Shown in pieces: positions 52,331 through 64,000 of a DNA stretch of 64,000 nt. Source of the stretch: Spirochaetales bacterium (GTDB lineage Bacteria; Spirochaetota; Spirochaetia; Treponematales; Treponemataceae). The notes beneath the pieces were generated by a model that ran no database searches, had not been told where the DNA came from, and worked only from the letters and a program-made list of their open reading frames with translations. Where the stretch lies: NCBI GenBank assembly GCA_029098225.1, contig JAQXNX010000027.1, positions 1 through 64,000 of the forward strand, read 5' to 3'. Position numbers and translations under genes: made by a program. The stretch's first letter is position 1, and each line of letters opens with the position of its first letter.

Positions 52331-52692
52331 ATCCATGCGCGACCGCTACCGCGGAGGTTATGAGGAGTATGCAAAAAATACATCCCTGTATTTTTTGCAA
52401 CTGCAGTTTTTCCTTTCGGAAAAAGCTGCGATTCGCTGCCTCCATGCAGCGCCGCTACCGCGGAGGTTATAAGGAGTATGCAAAAAATACGTCCCTGTAT
52501 TTTTTGCAACTGCAGTTTTTCCTTCGGAAAAAGCTGCGATTCGCTGCCTCCATGCAGCGCCGCTACCGCGGAGGTTTATAAGGAGTATGCAAAAAATACG
52601 TCCCTGTATTTTTTGCAACTGCAGTTTTTCCTTTCGGAAAAAGCTGCTTATTTCGCGCATCCATGCGCGACCGCTACCGCGGAGGTTTAAGG
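52331..52692 (+). repeat. tandem array of three ~109-bp units with SD-like boxes and hairpins
   Basis: The box CCGCTACCGCGGAGG occurs four times (starts 52343, 52452, 52560, 52671; spacing 109, 108, 111 bp). Each unit then has AAGGAGTATG, a stem CAAAAAATAC/GTATTTTTTG and a stem GCAGTTTTTCC/GGAAAAAGCTGC with a TTCGG-type loop. The last box provides the real ribosome binding site of the ABC gene at 52701. Small ORFs in the track here (both strands) are products of this periodicity. The preceding 65 bp (52266-52330) are T-rich with TATTATAT boxes and may hold the promoter. Confidence 0.85.
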
Positions 52693-52700
52693 AGTAAAAA

Positions 52701-53696
52701 ATGATTGAATTATCTAATGTTTTTCGTGATTTTGGAAATTTCCGTGCTGTAAATGACATTAGTTTTTCTATTCCTACAGGACAAATTGTTGGATTGCTTG
52801 GTCCAAATGGTGCCGGAAAAACTACTACAATGCGAATGATTTCTGGATTTATTGAGCCAACATCAGGAACCATTAAAATTGATGGTGTTGATATTCATGA
52901 AAATCCTGTTGAAGCAAAGAAAAAAATTGGTTATATGCCTGAATCTGCACCGCTTTATCAGGATATGATTGTAGAAGATTATCTTAATTATATTGCAGAA
53001 ATTCATAACGAAGATGCATCTGTAAAGGTTCCTCAGCTTTGCGAGGAGTGCGGACTTAAAGAAGTAATGAGCAAAAATATTTCTGAGCTTTCTCGCGGTA
53101 ACCGACAGAGAGTTGCTCTTGCGCATGCATTAATGCACGATCCAGAAATTCTTATACTCGATGAACCAACCAGCGGACTTGATCCTAATCAGGTAGAAGA
53201 TGTTCGTGCAATTATCCGTGAAATAGGAAAAACCAGAACGGTAATTGTTTCTACACATATTTTGAGTGAAGTTGAAACCTTATGCAGCCGTGCAATCATT
53301 ATTTCTGGCGGAAGACTGGTTGCAGATAGTTCTATAGAAGAATTGAAGAACAGCATTAAAAAGCAGTCTTCAGTTTTTGTTACCCTTAGATGCTCAGATA
53401 AAAACGAATTTTCTGCAATTGAAGCAATTGCAGAAAAAATTGATGGCGTTGTAAAGGCTGTATGTTCTCCTTTAGAAAATGATTTATGCAGGCTTGAACT
53501 TTCTGTAAAGGAAAATTTTGAAGTTCGTCCAAAGCTTGTAAAAGCGCTTGTAGAAAAGAATTATGATTTGTATGAAATTTCAATTAGCGAAAATTCTCTT
53601 GAAGATGTATTCCATGAATTAACCTCGGGAAGTTCGGCTGAAAGTTCATCTTCAAACGAAAATTCCGCAGCAGAAAAAAATACATCAGAAAATTAG
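52701..53696 (+). CDS. ABC transporter ATPase, GldA/CcmA-like
   Basis: A 331-residue ATP-binding subunit. Walker A is GPNGAGKTTT, the signature is ELSRGNRQRVALAHAL (LSRGN rather than LSGGQ), and Walker B is ILILDEPTSGLDP. After about residue 215 an extra domain follows, ending in a Ser/Asn/Glu-rich tail. The following permease, GldG-like and DUF4340 genes make this the ATPase of a Gld-like system. AAGGAG lies before the ATG, downstream of the tandem repeats. What it exports is unknown. Confidence 0.88.
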   Translation: MIELSNVFRDFGNFRAVNDISFSIPTGQIVGLLGPNGAGKTTTMRMISGFIEPTSGTIKIDGVDIHENPVEAKKKIGYMPESAPLYQDMIVEDYLNYIAEIHNEDASVKVPQLCEECGLKEVMSKNISELSRGNRQRVALAHALMHDPEILILDEPTSGLDPNQVEDVRAIIREIGKTRTVIVSTHILSEVETLCSRAIIISGGRLVADSSIEELKNSIKKQSSVFVTLRCSDKNEFSAIEAIAEKIDGVVKAVCSPLENDLCRLELSVKENFEVRPKLVKALVEKNYDLYEISISENSLEDVFHELTSGSSAESSSSNENSAAEKNTSEN

Positions 53697-53705
53697 GAGA
53701 TAAAA

Positions 53706-54431
53706 ATGAAAAATAATAAATGTAAAAATGCTTCTATTATAATTATGAAGCGTGAATTAAAATCATATTTTTCCAGTCCTATTGCTTATTTTGTAACAGG
53801 ATTATTTCTTCTGGTTGCAGGTCTTTTCTTTTTTACTCCATTTTTCCTTCAGAATAGGGCAGAGCTGAGGGCTTTATTTGCCTATTTCCCGATTTTTCTG
53901 GGAATCTTTATTCCAGCAGTAACAATGAGAAACTTTGCCGAGGAAAGAAGAATTGGTTCAATGGAAACTTTAATGACTCTTCCGGTTACAGAATTTCAGG
54001 TAACTCTTGGAAAATATCTTGCAAGTTTTATTTCTTCACTCGTAATGATTGTGCCAACGCTTTTATATCTTATTCCGGTAGAGGTTTTCGGCTCTCCTGA
54101 TTACGGTCCTATAATCGGCGGATACCTTGGTGCAATTTTCTTATGCGCTTGTTTTTCTGCAATCGGGTTGTTTTCTTCTTCAATTACAAAAAATCAGATA
54201 ATCGCATATTTTGTCGGCGGATTTATTTGTCTTGCTCTTGCATTAGTTCATATTTTCTTTGTATTTCTTCCGGCTCCTGCTATTAAATTTTTTACATTTA
54301 TTTCTGCCAACGCACATTTTGAATCAATTTCGCGCGGCATTTTAGATTCCAGAGATTTCATATATTTTATTTCTCTGGCAGTTTTATTCTTTTTAATGAC
54401 AGTTCGTCATGAAGAGAATCAGAAAAAGTAG
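53706..54431 (+). CDS. ABC-2 type permease, GldF-like
   Basis: A 241-residue inner-membrane permease with six spans. The first hydrophilic loop reads MRNFAEERRIGSMETLMTLPV, a signature of GldF/ABC-2 permeases. It starts 9 bp after the ATPase stop with AGGAG upstream and ends 10 bp before the GldG-like gene. It is part of one operon with them. Confidence 0.87.
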   Translation: MKNNKCKNASIIIMKRELKSYFSSPIAYFVTGLFLLVAGLFFFTPFFLQNRAELRALFAYFPIFLGIFIPAVTMRNFAEERRIGSMETLMTLPVTEFQVTLGKYLASFISSLVMIVPTLLYLIPVEVFGSPDYGPIIGGYLGAIFLCACFSAIGLFSSSITKNQIIAYFVGGFICLALALVHIFFVFLPAPAIKFFTFISANAHFESISRGILDSRDFIYFISLAVLFFLMTVRHEENQKK

Positions 54432-54441
54432 GTGGTGAATT

Positions 54442-56529
54442 ATGAAGAAATTAATAAACTGGTTTAAAAGTTCAAAAAGCGATTTTGTATTATTTGTTAT
54501 TTTTCTGGTATTAATTAATCTTTTAAGCTTCAGCTTTTATAAAAGAATTGATTTAACAAAATCAAAATCTTATTCTCTTTCTAAAGCAAGCAAGGAACTT
54601 GTAAATAATCTGGAACAGCCACTTTCTGTTTATTCGTTCTTCGACAGTAATCTTCCAGAAGCTTATAATGCCATAGCTCAGTATGTTGAAGATCTTTTAA
54701 CAGAATATGAAGGCGCTGCAAAAAAGAATTTTAATGTGTATAAAATGAATACTTCAAAACCTCAGAATGCAAAGCTTGCAGATGATTTTGGTCTTATGCA
54801 GGTACAGATTCAGGAAGTTAAAAGTAAGGAAGTTGGATTTAAGCAGGGGTATATGGGAATTGCCATTACTTACGGAGATTCTGTAGAAATTATAAATCCT
54901 ATTTCTTCAACAGACGGTTTTGAATATCTTCTTTCTTCCAAAATTTCAAAGATTATAAGTACAAGCGATACTCTTGCTGGGCTTCCAAAAAATGATCATA
55001 TAGAATTAAAGCTTTACTTTTCAGATATTCTTAAAAACTGGGGAATTTCTGGGGCAGATGAAATTGAAAAAAATACCCGCTCAGCATACAAGGCTGTAAA
55101 TAAACGGGCATCGGGCAGAATTGATTTTACAATAGAAAATAATGTTTCAGATTCAGTTCTGTTGGATGCAGAAAAATATGGTTTGCAGATGGTTAGAATT
55201 CAGAATGACGATGGAAGTATAACAACAGCTGTTCTTGGCCTTGTGCTTATTCATAATGACGATTTTTATTCACTTCCTGTGCAGATTGAAAATATGCTTT
55301 TCAGCTATGCAATTTCCGGAATTGATGATTTAGAAAATTCTATTACAGAAGGCTTGCAGAGTCTTCTTTCTAATGTAACTTATGTAGGCTACATTACCGG
55401 TCATGATGAGCTTGCGCTTAAAGATGATTCAAATTCTGGCGGAATGACTTCGGCTGTAAACTTCAGTAATCTTGTTTCAGAAAAATATCAGTTTGTAGAA
55501 ATGGATCTTTCTGAGGAAGATATTCCGGCCGGCATGAATTGTATTGTAATAAACGGTCCTAAATCTGAATTCCTGGATAAAGAACTTTACAAGATTGATC
55601 AGTTTATTCTTCGCGGTGGAAACGTTGTTTTCTTTGTAGATGGAATGCTCGAAAATCAGATGGCAATGTATTACGGCGGCGAAAGTTTTGAAAAGAACGA
55701 AAGTAATATTATAAAGCTCCTGGAAGCTTATGGAATTAAAATTCAGAATGATATTGTTTTTGACAAAAACTGTTATACAGCAAAGAATCAGAATTATGGA
55801 ATGCTAAATTATTACTGGGCTCCAAATCTTCAAAAAGATCAGCTTTCTCAAAGCAGTGTAATTACAAAAAATCTTGGTTATGTTTTAATGCTTCAGAATA
55901 GTTCAATAGATGCTTCTGCTGCTATAGAAGACAAAAATATAAATCTTTCTGTTCTTGCAAAAACTTCGGAAGATTCATGGACCGCATCTGAAAATCTTTA
56001 TTTGAATCCACTTACTATGTCGGTCCCAGATAATAAAGATGAACTTCATTCAAGCGTACTTGCTGTTCTTGCCGAAGGGAAATTCAACAGTTATTTTGAA
56101 TCTGCTCCAGAATTTGATGAGCCGGGAGAAGCTTCTGGTAATTCAGAAGTGAATAATAAACTTCAGACTTCTAAGCATATTGCAAAGAGTATAGCTAACG
56201 GAAAACTTTTTGTAACTGGTTCTTCACAAATTACAACAGGACAGGTAATTGATGAAGCTGGAAATACACCAGTTGCAATGCTTTTACTTAACGTTATTGA
56301 TTATATGAACGGTAACCAGGATTTATGTATTATGAGAACAAAGGGACTCTCTGCAAATGTTCTTACAATAAAATCTAAGGCTGCTGCAAACTTCTGGCAA
56401 TATTTCTGTGAGTTTGGAATTCTTGTTCTTATATTTGTCTGCTGGCTGATTGTATGGAGAATTCGTGTGAACCGAAGAAAGCAGATAAACAAAAAATACA
56501 ATCCAAACGATGCGCGATTAATTAAATAA
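54442..56529 (+). CDS. GldG-like ABC auxiliary protein
   Basis: A 695-residue protein anchored by an N-terminal span (about residues 15-34) and a C-terminal span (near 655-678, ILVLIFVCWLIVW). The large periplasmic part fits the GldG/ABC-auxiliary family (SKASKELVNNLEQPLSVYSFF, NCIVINGPKSEFLDKELYKIDQFI, GNVVFFVDGM). It probably works with the ATPase and permease just upstream. A GGTGG box precedes the ATG. Confidence 0.82.
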   Translation: MKKLINWFKSSKSDFVLFVIFLVLINLLSFSFYKRIDLTKSKSYSLSKASKELVNNLEQPLSVYSFFDSNLPEAYNAIAQYVEDLLTEYEGAAKKNFNVYKMNTSKPQNAKLADDFGLMQVQIQEVKSKEVGFKQGYMGIAITYGDSVEIINPISSTDGFEYLLSSKISKIISTSDTLAGLPKNDHIELKLYFSDILKNWGISGADEIEKNTRSAYKAVNKRASGRIDFTIENNVSDSVLLDAEKYGLQMVRIQNDDGSITTAVLGLVLIHNDDFYSLPVQIENMLFSYAISGIDDLENSITEGLQSLLSNVTYVGYITGHDELALKDDSNSGGMTSAVNFSNLVSEKYQFVEMDLSEEDIPAGMNCIVINGPKSEFLDKELYKIDQFILRGGNVVFFVDGMLENQMAMYYGGESFEKNESNIIKLLEAYGIKIQNDIVFDKNCYTAKNQNYGMLNYYWAPNLQKDQLSQSSVITKNLGYVLMLQNSSIDASAAIEDKNINLSVLAKTSEDSWTASENLYLNPLTMSVPDNKDELHSSVLAVLAEGKFNSYFESAPEFDEPGEASGNSEVNNKLQTSKHIAKSIANGKLFVTGSSQITTGQVIDEAGNTPVAMLLLNVIDYMNGNQDLCIMRTKGLSANVLTIKSKAAANFWQYFCEFGILVLIFVCWLIVWRIRVNRRKQINKKYNPNDARLIK

Positions 56530-56542
56530 TGGAGATGCGACT

Positions 56543-57133
56543 ATGAAACCTAGAAAACTTATATTAATTATTGCCGATTTAATTCTGCTTGCTGTGTTAA
56601 TTATTAATTTAATTATTTCTTCAAAAAGCAGTATAAAGAATTTTGAAATTAAAGAAGACATTAATTCTATATTAATTACAAAAGCGGATGGGGAAATTTC
56701 TCTTACCAAAAATGGCGAAGATTGGTTTGTAGGAAACGAAAATCTTCCTGCTGAAAATTATTCTGTTGAAAATCTTGTAGAGGCAGTTTCTTCAATTAAA
56801 GTTCTGGATAAGGTTGCTTCTTTATCTGAATACACAAAAGAAACCTATGAATTTACAGATAATAATTCCATTACAGTTCTTGTAAAAAATAATGATAAGG
56901 TTTTAAGAAAAATTGTACTTGGAAAAAAATCTACAGTTTACAGTCAGACCTTCATTACTTTAGACGACAAAAATGACATTTATCTTTCTACAGGTTCATT
57001 AAGAAGTAAATTTGAGATTACAGAAAATGATTTAATTAAGGCAGAGCCTGAACCTGAACAGCAGCCGGAAGCATCTTCAGAAGCAGACAATTCTATTGAA
57101 GATTCTCTGGAAGAACCTTCAATAGAATTGTAA
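56543..57133 (+). CDS. DUF4340-like membrane-anchored protein
   Basis: A 196-residue protein with an N-terminal membrane anchor (LILIIADLILLAVLIINLII) followed by a periplasmic domain of the DUF4340 kind (ILITKADGEISLTKNGEDWFV). The C-terminus is Glu/Pro/Ser-rich and disordered. DUF4340 genes often follow gldG-like genes, and here it lies 13 bp after that gene. The biochemical role is unknown. It is shorter than typical family members, which may carry repeats. Confidence 0.75.
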   Translation: MKPRKLILIIADLILLAVLIINLIISSKSSIKNFEIKEDINSILITKADGEISLTKNGEDWFVGNENLPAENYSVENLVEAVSSIKVLDKVASLSEYTKETYEFTDNNSITVLVKNNDKVLRKIVLGKKSTVYSQTFITLDDKNDIYLSTGSLRSKFEITENDLIKAEPEPEQQPEASSEADNSIEDSLEEPSIEL

Positions 57134-57947: not shown

Positions 57948-58790
57948 ATGGCAGTAGTTAGTTTAAAAGATGTCCATAAATTCTATCAGTTAGGAAGAGA
58001 AAAAATTGAAGCTGTAAAGGGAGTTTCCTTTTCTGTAGAAAAAGGCGAGTTTGCAGCCATTTCCGGACCATCTGGTTCAGGAAAATCAACAATATTGAAT
58101 ATGGTTGGTTTAATAGACTTACCAAGCAGCGGATCTATTGTAATCGGCGGAACAGATGTTTATGAAGGAATTGATCTTTCTTCATCTGCTGTAAGAGATA
58201 ACCGCTGGTCATCTTCTGTTTCAAAAGAAGATAAAAAGAAGGTTAGAACGACTGTACCTTCAAAAGTAGATAGAAGAATCACAGCTTTGCGCCGTTCTCA
58301 TATTGGATTTATTTTCCAGACTTTCAACCTTATTCCTGTACTGAATGTTTATGAAAATATTGAATTCCCTCTTCTGCTTGAATCAAGAAATAAAGCTTCA
58401 TGGAGTCCTGTAGATGATTTTTCTAAGGCTCAGAAAGAAGAATGGATTAACTTCCTTATGGAAAAAGTTGGTCTCAAAGACTGGAAAAAACATAAGGCAA
58501 ATGAGCTTTCTGGCGGACAGCGTCAGAGAGTTGCAATTGCAAGAGCTCTTGTAACAAAAGCTCCTGTAATTCTTGCTGATGAACCGACAGCAAACCTTGA
58601 CTCAAAAAACTCAGAACAGATTCTTTCTTTGATGAAATCTTTGAATAAAGATCCTGATTTGAAAACAACCTTTATTTTCTCTACACACGATTCTCGTATT
58701 GTAGATATGTGTGACCATGTTGTTCATATTCTCGATGGTCAGGTTATCAATGATGAATTTAAAGCAGGTTCAGACGTTTATAAGATTTAA
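57948..58790 (+). CDS. ABC transporter ATPase, LolD/MacB-like
   Basis: A 280-residue ATPase. Walker A is GPSGSGKST, the signature is LSGGQRQRVAIARAL and Walker B is VILADEPTANLDS. Between Walker A and the Q-loop (FIFQTFN) it carries about 40 extra residues rich in Ser and Lys (SSSVSKEDKKKVRTTVPSK), compared with ordinary LolD proteins of about 230. The two permeases and a LolA-like protein downstream point to lipoprotein or envelope-factor export. It has its own promoter. Confidence 0.88.
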   Translation: MAVVSLKDVHKFYQLGREKIEAVKGVSFSVEKGEFAAISGPSGSGKSTILNMVGLIDLPSSGSIVIGGTDVYEGIDLSSSAVRDNRWSSSVSKEDKKKVRTTVPSKVDRRITALRRSHIGFIFQTFNLIPVLNVYENIEFPLLLESRNKASWSPVDDFSKAQKEEWINFLMEKVGLKDWKKHKANELSGGQRQRVAIARALVTKAPVILADEPTANLDSKNSEQILSLMKSLNKDPDLKTTFIFSTHDSRIVDMCDHVVHILDGQVINDEFKAGSDVYKI

Positions 58791-58838: not shown

Positions 58839-60359
58839 ATGAAAGAAATAATTAAACTTGCCTTGCGCAATTTAAAGGAACATAAATCAAAATCCATTAT
58901 AATTTCATTGTTTATCCTTTTTGGCGTTGCAATTGTTATATTGGGAAATTCGTTCCTTGAATCAATTAACCGCGGACTTGAAAAAGATTTCCGTTCAAAT
59001 ATCACTGGAGATATTGCTGTTTGTGCAATTCCTCCAAAGGGTGTATCCGTAGATGTATTTGGCGCTTCTTCTATGGAAATTACTTCATCACAGCCACAGA
59101 TTCCAGCTCTTATGGATATTGATACTGTAGAAAAAATTATTGCAGAAACTGATGGTGTTACAAAATACTCAAGAATGATTTCTGCACAGGTAATGCTTTC
59201 TAAGGGAATTGAATTTGATTTTTCTGCTCTGGAAGAAAATGATGATGCAGATTTTTCTGATATTCCTTTTTCAATGCTGTTTGCTGGAGAAAAAGATTCG
59301 TACTGGGAACTTTTCCCAGACCTTAATATGATTGAAGGTCGATATCCTCAGGCTGGTACAAATGAAATTATTGTAGATACCAGAGTTATGGACGGTTTTA
59401 AAAAAATTTATAAGGAAGATCTTCAGTTAAATGATAATGTACTTCTGGCTAATATGAATGGTACAATTCGTGAAGCAGTAGTTGTAGGATTCTTTAAACC
59501 TGCTAATGAATATTCTGCAATGTTCCAGAGTATTTATTCTACACCGGAATTAGCTCGTGCTTTTGCAGATCTTACATACGCAAATTCCTTCTCGCAGGAA
59601 TTGCCGGATACTGTAGATCTTGGAATTTCAAATATGTCTGAGGATGATTTGTTTGGCGATAATGATTTCTTTGGAGATATTGAAGATGATGAATCTATTC
59701 TTGGAAGTACAACAGATTTTGACAGCATTCTTGGAGATACAACTCTTCGTGATGAGTTAAATAAAACCGATGATGGAGCCTGGCATTTTATTCTTGCTAA
59801 GCTTGAAAATCCTCACATGGATAAAAAGACTGTGGCAGAGCTTAATAAAATATTTAAGGAAAAAGATCTTGCTGCTCAGGCAATGGACTGGAAAAAGGCT
59901 GCTTTGTCATATTCAGGAACTGTCGCTGGAATTGGAATGATTTTTAATGTTCTGATTGTTATTCTTGCAGTTGTTGTATTCATCATTATTATGAATACTA
60001 TGGTTGTTTCGGTAATTGAGCGTACCAGCGAAATTGGAACAATGCGTGCAATTGGCGCAGAAAAGAAATTTGTAAAAAGATTGTTCTCTGCAGAGACTCT
60101 TATCCTTACATCACTTTCGGCATTATTCGGAATAGTGTTTGCATTTTTCTGCATGGCAATCTTTAATGCGTGTCATATTGTAATTACAAATTCAATTGCA
60201 AAAATGATTCTTGGCGGTGGATTATTACACTTTACTCCAACCTGGGAAATCATCTTAGTTACAATTATTATTACTTTAATAGGAAGTTTATTAAGTAATT
60301 TGTATCCTGTTAAATCAGCTCTTAAAGTTACGCCGCTTAAGGCATTGAGCAAGGAATAA
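58839..60359 (+). CDS. LolC/E- or MacB-type ABC permease with acidic periplasmic insert
   Basis: A 506-residue permease with one N-terminal span (about 20-40), a large periplasmic domain and three C-terminal spans in the FtsX domain (NVLIVILAVVVFIIIMNTM, then SEIGTMRAIGAEKKFV). In the periplasmic domain, residues about 266-305 form an Asp/Gly/Phe-rich stretch (SEDDLFGDNDFFGDIEDDE). The same kind of stretch occurs in the barrel protein at 62585. AGGAG lies before the ATG. It is 48 bp after the ATPase. Confidence 0.85.
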   Translation: MKEIIKLALRNLKEHKSKSIIISLFILFGVAIVILGNSFLESINRGLEKDFRSNITGDIAVCAIPPKGVSVDVFGASSMEITSSQPQIPALMDIDTVEKIIAETDGVTKYSRMISAQVMLSKGIEFDFSALEENDDADFSDIPFSMLFAGEKDSYWELFPDLNMIEGRYPQAGTNEIIVDTRVMDGFKKIYKEDLQLNDNVLLANMNGTIREAVVVGFFKPANEYSAMFQSIYSTPELARAFADLTYANSFSQELPDTVDLGISNMSEDDLFGDNDFFGDIEDDESILGSTTDFDSILGDTTLRDELNKTDDGAWHFILAKLENPHMDKKTVAELNKIFKEKDLAAQAMDWKKAALSYSGTVAGIGMIFNVLIVILAVVVFIIIMNTMVVSVIERTSEIGTMRAIGAEKKFVKRLFSAETLILTSLSALFGIVFAFFCMAIFNACHIVITNSIAKMILGGGLLHFTPTWEIILVTIIITLIGSLLSNLYPVKSALKVTPLKALSKE

Positions 60360-60373
60360 GGGGAGAAAAGAAT

Positions 60374-61729
60374 ATGAAAACTGTATCTTTAGCTTTAAAG
60401 AATTTGAGCCGTAATAAAAGACGTAATTCAATTCTTGCAGCTGCTATAGCCTTTGGTTTTCTTGTAGTTACTGCAATAGATGGATTTGTTACTGGAGTTG
60501 TTGGAACTCTGGAAGATCAGATTACCCAGCTTATTGGTGGAAATGTAATTGTTCAGGGACTTGAGTGGCAAAATTCAACAGTTCCTGGAGGCTCTGCAAG
60601 TCTTGTAAATATTGTGCGCGACAGAGATTATGCAAAGACAATTGTTGATAGCTGCGGAATAAAATATGACTACTATTCCTGCTATACAATGAGTGGCGGA
60701 GAATTAATTTTTAATGGCAAAAAAACGGTAGTTCAGTTTTATGGACGTGATTTAAGTGAAAAATCTTTACGTGATTCATTCCAGTTTGTAAGTGGTGGAG
60801 TTGATGAAAATGTAAAGAATGGAATTATTATTAGTGAAAGCACAGCTGAAACAATGAATCTTCAGGTTGGTGATAATTTAATATATTCAACAGGCACTGT
60901 TTACAGACAGAATACTTTTGCAGATGTTACTGTTATGGGTATTATTAAATCTAATACCTTTATTAATAAAATGCAGGGGTATATGAATATTGAAGATTTG
61001 AACTCTATTATTGAAATGCCTGAAGGCGGATATTCAATGTTCTCTATTTACCTTCCTAATAAAAATAAACAGACAAAGGCTGCTATCGCTATAGAAAATA
61101 GAATACGCCAGGATCATGAAAAAAATCCGGAAATTAATGTAACAAATCGTGCTCTTGCTTTTCAGACAAATCCTACAAACATCGGTGCCGGAATTGAAAA
61201 GCAGCTTGATCCTAAAAAACCGGAAAATGAATGGCAGGGTGTAATGTATGGAGTAGAAACTCTTTATGATGAAATTCCTCAGATTAAAACAGTTTTGAAT
61301 GTTGTACATGTCATTTCTACTGTTATTCTTATAGTAATTCTTTTAATTGTTATGGTAGGAGTTTCAAATACTTATAGAATGGTTTTATATGAAAGAATCA
61401 GAGAAATTGGAACTATGAGAGCATTGGGAATGACAGGAAAAACAACTAAAAAAGTTTTTACAAACGAAGCTGTAATACTTTGTATTATTGGAGCTGTTTT
61501 GGGATTGATTCTTGCTTTAATTATAATGGGTATTGTTCACTGTATTCCAATTGAAAGTGAGGCTCTTTCTATTTTCCTTAATAAGGGACACTTTGATTTC
61601 AAGGTTTCTGTATTTTCAATTATTATCCAGTATTTATTGCTTATAATCCTTACAACTTTTGCTGTTCGCGGAAGTGCTAAAAAGGCTTCAAAAATGAACC
61701 CTGCAGAAGCATTAAGAACAATTAAGTAA
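60374..61729 (+). CDS. LolC/E- or MacB-type ABC permease
   Basis: A 451-residue permease with the same topology as its neighbour: an N-terminal span (about 18-38), a periplasmic MacB-like domain and three C-terminal spans. The cytoplasmic loop RIREIGTMRALGMTGK is typical. It lacks the acidic insert of the partner. With the first permease it probably forms a heterodimer. GGGGAG lies before the ATG, 14 bp after the partner gene. Confidence 0.86.
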   Translation: MKTVSLALKNLSRNKRRNSILAAAIAFGFLVVTAIDGFVTGVVGTLEDQITQLIGGNVIVQGLEWQNSTVPGGSASLVNIVRDRDYAKTIVDSCGIKYDYYSCYTMSGGELIFNGKKTVVQFYGRDLSEKSLRDSFQFVSGGVDENVKNGIIISESTAETMNLQVGDNLIYSTGTVYRQNTFADVTVMGIIKSNTFINKMQGYMNIEDLNSIIEMPEGGYSMFSIYLPNKNKQTKAAIAIENRIRQDHEKNPEINVTNRALAFQTNPTNIGAGIEKQLDPKKPENEWQGVMYGVETLYDEIPQIKTVLNVVHVISTVILIVILLIVMVGVSNTYRMVLYERIREIGTMRALGMTGKTTKKVFTNEAVILCIIGAVLGLILALIIMGIVHCIPIESEALSIFLNKGHFDFKVSVFSIIIQYLLLIILTTFAVRGSAKKASKMNPAEALRTIK

Positions 61730-61798
61730 GCTTATAATTGAAAATAACTTTAGCGGCGAGTTTATACGAGCCACAATTTTTTAATCAGGAGTTTTTGG

Positions 61799-62563
61799 AT
61801 GAAAAAATTATTATCAATTTTTGTTGCAGCAGCTCTTTTTACTGCAGCTGCCTTTGCCCAGGTTTCACATGAGGATTCCGAAAAAGGTTTTAAAATAATG
61901 GAGGATACAGAAGATATCCTTGCATACCATGGAGATTATTCTGCAACTATTTCTTTTGAAGTTGAAAAGCCTGGTAAACCTAAGGAACACATTCAGTATA
62001 AGATTTTTCAGCGTACTGATTCAAAGCTTATGACTGTAGTTCAGCTTTTCCCGGAAGCAGATAAGGGTGTTGGTTATCTTCGTAACGGAGACAACATCTG
62101 GTCTTATGACCCGATCAGCCGTAAATTCTCACATACTTCTATGAAAGAAGCTCTTGGAGATTCAGATGTACAGCTTGATGATATTGACCAGAATAAAAAA
62201 TACTGGCGCGATAATTATGAAGTTGTAGGTTTCGAAGAAGGAACTCTTGGAAAGTATCCTGTTTATATTATTACTCTTAAGGCAACTACAAGTGAACCAT
62301 CTTATGCTAAGTCAAAATATTATATTCGAAAGGATATTACGCTTATCTTAAAGGAAGAAGAGTTCTCTGGTTCTGATCGTCTTATGCGTACAACACTTTT
62401 CCCTAAGTGGTCAAAGGTTCCGGCCGGATATGTTCCTACTCAGATAATCATGCGTGATGAGTTAAATCCCGGAGAACAGACACAACAGGTTATTTCAGAT
62501 TTAACTTTTGACGCTTTGCCGGATAAGATTTTTACAAAGGCATATCTTGAAGGTTTGAACTAA
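61799..62563 (+). CDS. LolA-like outer-membrane lipoprotein-sorting protein
   Basis: A 254-residue periplasmic protein with a signal peptide (LSIFVAAALFTAAAFA). The mature domain belongs to the LolA-like group annotated as outer membrane lipoprotein-sorting (GDYSATISFEVEKPGK, GVGYLRNGDNIWSYDPISRKFSH, YYIRKDITLILKEEEFSGSDRLMRT). It probably carries a lipidic or lipoprotein cargo from the ABC permeases toward the outer membrane. AGGAG lies before the ATG. The barrel gene follows after 21 bp. Confidence 0.82.
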   Translation: MKKLLSIFVAAALFTAAAFAQVSHEDSEKGFKIMEDTEDILAYHGDYSATISFEVEKPGKPKEHIQYKIFQRTDSKLMTVVQLFPEADKGVGYLRNGDNIWSYDPISRKFSHTSMKEALGDSDVQLDDIDQNKKYWRDNYEVVGFEEGTLGKYPVYIITLKATTSEPSYAKSKYYIRKDITLILKEEEFSGSDRLMRTTLFPKWSKVPAGYVPTQIIMRDELNPGEQTQQVISDLTFDALPDKIFTKAYLEGLN

Positions 62564-62584
62564 TTGCAGTCAATTGGAGACAAT

Positions 62585-64000
62585 ATGAAAAAATATATTT
62601 CATTATTTTTGTTTGCTGCCTTTCTGATTTTCGGTCTTAATGCACAGAGCGATGATGATTTATTCGGCGGATCAGATGATTTTATTTCTTCCGATGATAG
62701 TATGTTCGGTGGAGATGAAGACATTTTTTCTTCAGATGATGATCTCTTTTCTGATGATTCCATTCAGACAGTTAGTGATGTCTCTGCAAAGTCAGACCTC
62801 AGCAAGGGAGTTATTTTTGATACCGGTTCAATTAAAATCGGTGGAAGTTTAACTGCTGGAATTTCTACATCTACAGTTTTGTATTCCGAAGAAGAAAACG
62901 ATTTGGGTGACAATATTCATAATACAAAGCTTAGCCCGGATCTTTCAGCAATGCTTTCTGTAGATGCACGACCAACGGATATTCTTCGCATTTATTCAAA
63001 ATTTGGATTTGCTTATCCATTCCAGAATAAAGTTTTTACAACTTTAAAATATACTCCGGTTGCATTGAAACTTGGACCATTAGGTAATTATTCTTTACCT
63101 TTAGCAACATCTGCTGAATCTTCAATAGTTGACTGGTTTAAGCTAAAAGAGCTCTTTACAGACTTTTCTATGTATGACAGAGCGTTTTTCCGCTTTGGTA
63201 TTCATACAGTAAGCTGGGGAACAGGATATTTCTTTAGTCCGGTTTCTGATATGATTAACTCTTCTTCTATTGATCCGGAGAATCCTACAGAACAGGTAGA
63301 CGGAAGCTTGAACTTAAGAACCCAGCTTGTTTTCCCCGGCACTCAGAATTGTCTGTGGTTTTATGTAATTCCTTCAACAAATTTTAAAGGACAGACTGCA
63401 GATAGTTATGCAAGAGAAACTGCTCTTGCCGGTAAATTTGACTTTTTAATTGGAAACTGGGAAGCTGGTATTGGAGGCTTATGGAAATATAATTCTGCTC
63501 CAAAAGGAATGCTCACATTAAGCGGAAGCTTTAAAAAATTAAACATATTCAGTGAATTTGTTTACAGCTATGGAGCTCTGGAAGAGTGGGGTAAAAATAA
63601 TGACTGGGATGATAAAACAAGCATTTTCCAGGCAACAGCAGGCTTCTTATATATCTGGAAAGATCCTGGAATTTCACTTGCTGCTCAGTATTATTTTAAT
63701 AGCAATGATATTGATTCTCCTCAGAAAAATATTATTTACGGGCATAATATTGCCGGAACCTTAAGCTTTAGTGAGCTTTTTGGAAATAAAGATTTTTCTG
63801 CGAACCTTTTCTGTATGTCTAACATAGGAAGAAAAGATTATAAGGAAGAAGAAATTGAACTTATGAAGCTTATGGGCTTATCTAAATCAGAAATAGATTC
63901 TATTTCCGGTTATACCCTTACTTCATCGCTGATGGCATATTATACTCCTATCAAATATATGAAATTTGGTATGGGACCAACTGTAAATTTTAAAGATTTT
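62585..64000 (+). CDS. outer-membrane barrel protein, 3' end outside window
   Basis: The frame is open from ATG 62585 to the window end (472 residues, no stop), which is why it is absent from the ORF track. A signal peptide (KKYISLFLFAAFLIFGLNAQ) is followed by an acidic low-complexity segment of about 40 residues (DDDLFGGSDDF, MFGGDEDIFSSDD). The rest is rich in amphipathic beta strands and aromatic girdles, typical of a large porin-like barrel. GGAG precedes the ATG. It ends the Lol-like operon visible here and may be its outer-membrane partner. Confidence 0.78.
   Translation, partial: MKKYISLFLFAAFLIFGLNAQSDDDLFGGSDDFISSDDSMFGGDEDIFSSDDDLFSDDSIQTVSDVSAKSDLSKGVIFDTGSIKIGGSLTAGISTSTVLYSEEENDLGDNIHNTKLSPDLSAMLSVDARPTDILRIYSKFGFAYPFQNKVFTTLKYTPVALKLGPLGNYSLPLATSAESSIVDWFKLKELFTDFSMYDRAFFRFGIHTVSWGTGYFFSPVSDMINSSSIDPENPTEQVDGSLNLRTQLVFPGTQNCLWFYVIPSTNFKGQTADSYARETALAGKFDFLIGNWEAGIGGLWKYNSAPKGMLTLSGSFKKLNIFSEFVYSYGALEEWGKNNDWDDKTSIFQATAGFLYIWKDPGISLAAQYYFNSNDIDSPQKNIIYGHNIAGTLSFSELFGNKDFSANLFCMSNIGRKDYKEEEIELMKLMGLSKSEIDSISGYTLTSSLMAYYTPIKYMKFGMGPTVNFKDF

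Follow-up and report, generated by a model that had tools for sequence, protein, structure and literature searches.

In Escherichia coli, lipoproteins are trafficked by the LolCDE-LolA-LolB system, in which the Hook and Pad of LolC recruit LolA and the Hook enters the cavity of this carrier (PMC10865981). In the spirochaete Borrelia, a cluster described in 2026, BBJ23-29, holds the LolA-like BBJ28, the MacB-like BBJ26/27 and an Omp85-type barrel, BBJ25 (PMC13078400). There are also RND/MMPL clusters of a permease, a carrier-type protein (PF17131 or DUF1329) and a DUF1302 barrel, which have the joint encoding of permease, carrier and barrel in common with the locus studied here; the RND transporter AmeD of Castellaniella is reported to be one example (PMC6394551), and others are found on Prevotella and Haliovirga plasmids. 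Shuttles in which a LolA-like protein goes with an ABC or MMPL pump and a barrel are already known, and what appears to be new in the literature searched is a sequence tag shared by the pump and the barrel, of which a search of open-licence papers found no earlier description.

The tag was found in a five-gene operon at the end of a window of 64,000 nucleotides, by which we mean the whole stretch of DNA analysed. The genes lie on the forward strand in the order ATPase, permease 1 (P1), permease 2 (P2), LolA-like carrier and barrel. The first gene (57948..58790) encodes a LolD/MacB-like ABC ATPase (PF00005), which scored 191 bits against the LolD model TIGR02211, below the cut-off of 307.75, and which is kept as the first gene in orthologous operons. 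P1 (58839..60359; PF02687), which bears the tag, is a permease of the LolC/LolE/MacB type (type VII ABC). Its AlphaFold2 model has the type VII ABC permease fold with a large periplasmic domain, and in Foldseek matched LolE (9rlc_E, E=1.5e-17, TM 0.63 by target) as well as LolC and MacB. P2 (60374..61729) matches PF02687 (FtsX) and PF12704 (MacB_PCD) and is free of the tag; both permeases fall under the LolCE equivalog cut-off, with 48.7 and 58.3 bits against 362. The periplasmic carrier (61799..62563), also without the tag, reached 126.4 bits against PF17131, over the curated Pfam cut-off of 30, and its AlphaFold2 model shows the LolA-superfamily fold, an open beta-barrel with a cavity (3buu, E=2.2e-14; also 4z48 and 9tp6). 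The last gene (62585..64060) runs 60 bases past the window, which closes at 64000, so that its end was taken from the same contig. It encodes an outer-membrane beta-barrel, porin-like and with about 16-18 strands by AlphaFold2 model and Foldseek, where its matches include OmpU, OmpC and AlgE. There is no Pfam or NCBIfam match to it, and no Omp85 fold among the best 50 PDB matches, which are LolA-fold proteins and porin/AlgE barrels. Upstream of the operon, the window holds genes for an ABC ATPase, an ABC-2 permease, a GldG-like and a DUF4340-like protein (52701-57133), to judge by their sequences probably a separate export module; just before these gliding-type ABC genes lies a 109-base tandem repeat in three copies, 93% alike (52332-52696), which are probably intergenic repeats.

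The operon is like E. coli LolCDE in its type VII ABC exporter, its LolA-fold carrier and, as we infer, in a short periplasmic segment of a permease that recruits the carrier (PMC10865981). However, the Hook of E. coli is a hairpin that recruits LolA at the inner membrane alone, whereas here the same linear tag is carried by a permease and by an outer-membrane barrel, the latter in the place of LolB. To regard the P1 tag as the Hook of LolC was considered and rejected, for in the alignment the tag sits at another position and P1 has no Hook. At the Hook position, LolC 167-179, it is P2 that forms a hairpin, going by the sequence alignment only, where P1 makes a short turn; the exporter may offer the carrier two docking sites of different kinds. 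With Borrelia BBJ23-29 the operon shares the company of a spirochaete ABC permease, a LolA-like carrier and a barrel, for which a non-polar ligand was proposed there. The Borrelia cluster, however, has seven genes, TPR proteins and a homodimeric permease, our barrel is porin-like by structure and not Omp85, and the words motif, acidic and disordered are absent from the main text of that report (PMC13078400). No shared tag was found in two non-spirochaete clusters of a permease with a DUF1302 barrel, nor in a cluster from Ilyobacter where a hypothetical protein stands instead of the barrel.

In P1 the tag, SEDDLFGDNDFFGD, covers residues 267-280 (59637..59678) within a disordered periplasmic loop of about residues 247-311 (59577..59771, by pLDDT and alignment). 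The loop is flanked by a helix and a strand and falls at about LolC 214-223 when aligned with E. coli LolC/LolE. Its pLDDT in the AlphaFold2 model is below 50 at residues 247-266, 273-294 and 306-311, and that of the motif itself is above 50, with a short helix at 268-272. In the barrel, QSDDDLFGGSDDFISSDDSMFGGDEDIFSSDDDLFSDD follows directly after the signal peptide, the cleavage of which was judged by eye. Four copies were read here: SDDDLFG, conserved and reading on as SDDDLFGG (62648..62668), the tag-like DDSMFG (62693..62710) and DEDIF (62714..62728), and SDDDLFSDD (62732..62758). The tag peptides of this operon are MSEDDLFGDNDFFGD for P1 and QSDDDLFGGSDDF for the barrel. The model of the barrel shows a disordered tail, the P1 loop and the tail having pLDDT of about 30-50, and both would face the periplasm, given the topology of LolC/LolE and the even strand number usual for such barrels.

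At the DNA level, tag copies arise by local tandem duplication, as at 59644-59683 with a period of 18. The two tags of an operon are nevertheless written in different synonymous codons, in the window as in loci L133, L285, L289 and L283, which argues for selection on the peptide and not for copied DNA. Scanning the genome itself with a DNA pattern for DD(L/F)FG gave four places, namely the two genes of the window and two unrelated proteins without acidic context. Among 349 open reading frames in 404 kb of the genome, the strict motif was found in no other protein with a signal-peptide-like start; the objection that such a motif might be common in exported proteins is thus not borne out in this sample.

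The original prediction had noticed a DDLFG-type segment in a P1 loop and at the N-terminus of the mature barrel protein, and none in P2 or the LolA-like protein. All of this is confirmed, and the segment proves far more widespread than was claimed. We searched the carrier in 274 genomes of Treponemataceae and read 80 loci, of which those with the window-type system, called class A, have the same gene order in nearly all cases. The core [D/E][D/E]x(L/F)F is present at both sites in essentially every Spirochaetota operon examined. Among the 63 Treponemataceae operons with both genes, it occurs in all 63 P1 loops and, by pattern, in at least 57 barrel tails, while shuffling of residues would give 20% of loops and 16% of tails; the six misses are due to the pattern or to the signal-peptide cut, and by eye these tails carry the close variants DNLF, DDDLFF, DDELFG, ESELFG, NDLFGG and DALFDD. 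A set of 62 operons from named public genomes, which shares members with the former one and counts Treponema bryantii B25 and NK4A124 among its genomes, has both ends tagged in 59, the three misses being a truncation, a fused reading frame or DNLF. Beyond the family, both ends are tagged, often by a single clean copy, in 20 Spirochaetota operons that belong to other families, orders and classes, with the exceptions of one barrel that has Y for F and one P1 with a displaced LF. Co-occurrence in spirochaete orthologues had been named as a check on the original prediction, and the motif is indeed in both proteins of nearly every orthologous operon, the strict form being absent from 78 P2 and 81 LolA-like orthologues. 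Outside the spirochaetes, four plasmid loci from Fusobacteriota, Bacteroidota and Gammaproteobacteria, one of them without an adjoining barrel, have no tag.

Within the P1 loop, which varies in length and sequence, conservation centres on F272, invariant in the 55 aligned orthologues. Position 271 is L, F or M in 55/55, position 270 is D or E in 54/55, and position 268 is E in 53 and D in the rest. Copy number is highly variable, and the barrel N-termini of L066 and L068 contain many tandem SDDDLFGG repeats. The linkage of the genes varies as well: in four genomes of one genus (L323-L326) the gene for the class A barrel lies outside the operon, and the protein still carries LEDELFGGDTEALVTPEQ or a close form (DELFG), where P1 has SEDDLFSDDAVGVTEEAE, and in one genome the barrel, with SDDDLFGG, lies about 3 kb further on. 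That the tag is kept in unlinked barrels had been a prediction, and it passed. In the genus with the unlinked barrels, the 1.1-Mb genome G032 gave no class A LolA-like match, so that the class A system can be lost in reduced genomes.

The two ends are not only both tagged but also resemble each other within an operon. DLFGAPETV is found in both P1 and barrel at L289, LFGAET at L285 and N..LFG.S.G.LV at L283, and in the wider Spirochaetota operons the single-copy tags match position by position. In the phylum set the loop-to-tail score was 41.4 for own partners against 30.6 for others (partner permutation p=5e-5, n=19). When only 16-residue windows around the core were compared, the permutation again gave p=5e-5 (n=16). 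The partner effect in the phylum set was 10.3 with tails read forward, 5.6 with reversed and 2.8-5.5 with shuffled tails; some half of the effect thus survives reversal or shuffling of the tails, and this part of the agreement between partners in the set is put down to shared composition. Within Treponemataceae the own-partner effect is smaller (p=6.5e-4, n=55).

Four members of PF17131 are encoded in this genome, which allows class A to be set beside other systems. Class B (C16, L134) has FtsX-type permeases, distant relatives of P1 and P2, with STLFDDAED in the loop and ANLFNESED in the barrel. The dialect D-x-(L/M)F-(D/E/A)-x-A-x-D occurs at both ends in 28 relatives, with own partners again favoured (p=0.013). 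The form [LF]FG is found in 42/55 loops and 31/55 tails of class A against 2/28 loops and 0/28 tails of class B, and loop-to-tail scores are 44.7 (A-A) and 47.0 (B-B) within classes against 34.5 (A-B) and 37.3 (B-A) across them. The third system (G000:C32; L133:7698-13344, - strand) comprises an MMPL permease unrelated to P1, a LolA-like carrier and a barrel. Its tag is a long DSF/DF repeat, EEDSFESDSFADFADFGEDSF... in the periplasmic loop of the permease and EFDDFGGDSFESDSFG at the barrel start, with the identical 8-mer DSFESDSF common to both. Among its relatives the similarity of own partners is 0.40 against 0.24 (p=5e-5, n=29), the tails of seven loci having been set by hand and one locus added by hand. 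In this MMPL set five loci have W in place of F in loop and tail alike and two have it in the loop alone; none has it in the tail alone, and 22 have it at neither end (Fisher p=1.8e-4). As the loci are related by descent, these p values are not those of independent events. A partial Mantel test removing LolA distance, on an MMPL subset of 18, was not significant (r=0.23, p=0.10), hence the claim of co-variation rests on the partner permutation and the W/F exchange. At L307-L309 the MMPL protein is without the insert at the usual place and has an acidic stretch elsewhere (QEDAVFEEDPFAEDAIFE in L307), and the carrier gene is not followed by one for a barrel. In the fourth system (C10, L132), made up of MMPL, LolA-like protein and DUF1302 barrel, no tag is evident, which means that the tag is not needed by every LolA-like system.

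The tag shows what is typical of short linear motifs: it lies in disordered segments, forms an island of conservation and occurs independently in non-homologous proteins (FtsX-type P1, MMPL and barrels). Disorder, an invariant aromatic anchor, repeats and co-variation with a segment of another protein together point to a short linear motif that is bound at both sites by the same receptor. This receptor must be soluble, system-specific and common to pump and barrel in both ABC and MMPL systems, and in these operons the LolA-like carrier alone qualifies. As the MMPL system is without FtsX-type permeases, the one soluble component that all of them share is PF17131. By this elimination we lean towards carrier docking at both ends through a system-specific tag, with the LolA-like protein as the receptor. 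The operon would then be a shuttle made of a LolCDE-like exporter (P1, P2 and ATPase), a periplasmic LolA-like carrier and an outer-membrane porin-like barrel, and the [D/E][D/E]x(L/F)F tag would be a short linear motif displayed on the flexible loop of P1 and, singly or in several copies, on the flexible N-terminal tail of the barrel. One binding site of the carrier would dock presumably first at the exporter, where cargo is loaded, and then at the barrel, where it is given up, the cargo probably being a lipid or lipoprotein. The tag might even act like the Hook of LolC and hold the carrier open for loading and release, which is speculation. A hydrophobic-anchored peptide appears to fit better than a metal site, because the invariant position is aromatic while the acids interchange freely. 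Simple charge attraction between tag and carrier was set aside as not obvious, the LolA-like protein being itself net acidic (net charge -9; class mean -3).

That the segment is a common docking tag for the same periplasmic carrier, as the original prediction proposed among other readings, has gained from the co-variation and from the two further tagged systems. The structural side of the proposal did not gain: in an AlphaFold2 model of a natural read-through fusion of the LolA-like protein and the barrel the tail stayed undocked, with pLDDT of about 30, in what is a weak test, since the rows were unpaired, the linker contained a signal peptide and the sequence has repeats. The same undocked tail speaks for the alternative that both tags are read by a factor encoded outside the operon, such as a chaperone, a BAM subunit or a bridging protein clamping exporter and barrel together, and the added TPR proteins of the Borrelia LolA-like/barrel cluster, proposed as chaperones (PMC13078400), point the same way. 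We nevertheless consider such a factor unlikely, since the five-gene operon and its orthologues have no other conserved gene for a periplasmic protein, the other sampled exported proteins are without the tag, and the dialects within one genome argue for a system-specific receptor. More doubtful is a direct contact of the two membranes, in which the tail and the P1 loop would bind each other, a bridging metal or the same face of the permease, the carrier not being the receptor. Similar acidic segments on the two sides might bind the same partner or be joined through a cation, and the periplasmic domain of P1 is large; however, two peptides of like charge would need a bridge in order to pair, the invariant residue is an aromatic that changes identity at both ends together, and the MMPL system is tagged without P1 or P2.

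The finding that composition accounts for some half of the agreement between partners in the phylum set, along with the origin of copies by local tandem duplication, would also suit acidic spacers or calcium-binding stretches that are alike through shared composition and have no common receptor. We give this little probability, for the L/F-F core stands far above composition (100% against 20% of loops), F272 is kept in 55/55, single-copy tags match by position, W follows W, and unlinked barrels are tagged. As for chance, or DNA-level copying by gene conversion between neighbouring genes about 2.2 kb apart, the differing synonymous codons, the phylum-wide conservation and the tagged unlinked barrels make it hardly credible. 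Carrier docking at both membranes is the reading favoured here. Going one step beyond it, the dialects may form a peptide address code, in which each tagged shuttle has its own acidic-aromatic dialect on pump and barrel, read by one site of its carrier, that arose on unrelated pumps (ABC FtsX-type and MMPL) and stops parallel shuttles from mixing; we regard the chances for and against such a code as evenly balanced. An own dialect per tagged system would keep the carriers of parallel systems apart.

In spirochaetes, in which no LolB is known, the tag names a candidate outer-membrane acceptor for the handover of lipids or lipoproteins. The tag also provides a testable docking step and a sequence signature for assigning pumps to barrels, also where the two genes are not neighbours. 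Should every system have a dialect of its own, this rule could serve to sort the many LolA-like proteins of diderm bacteria.
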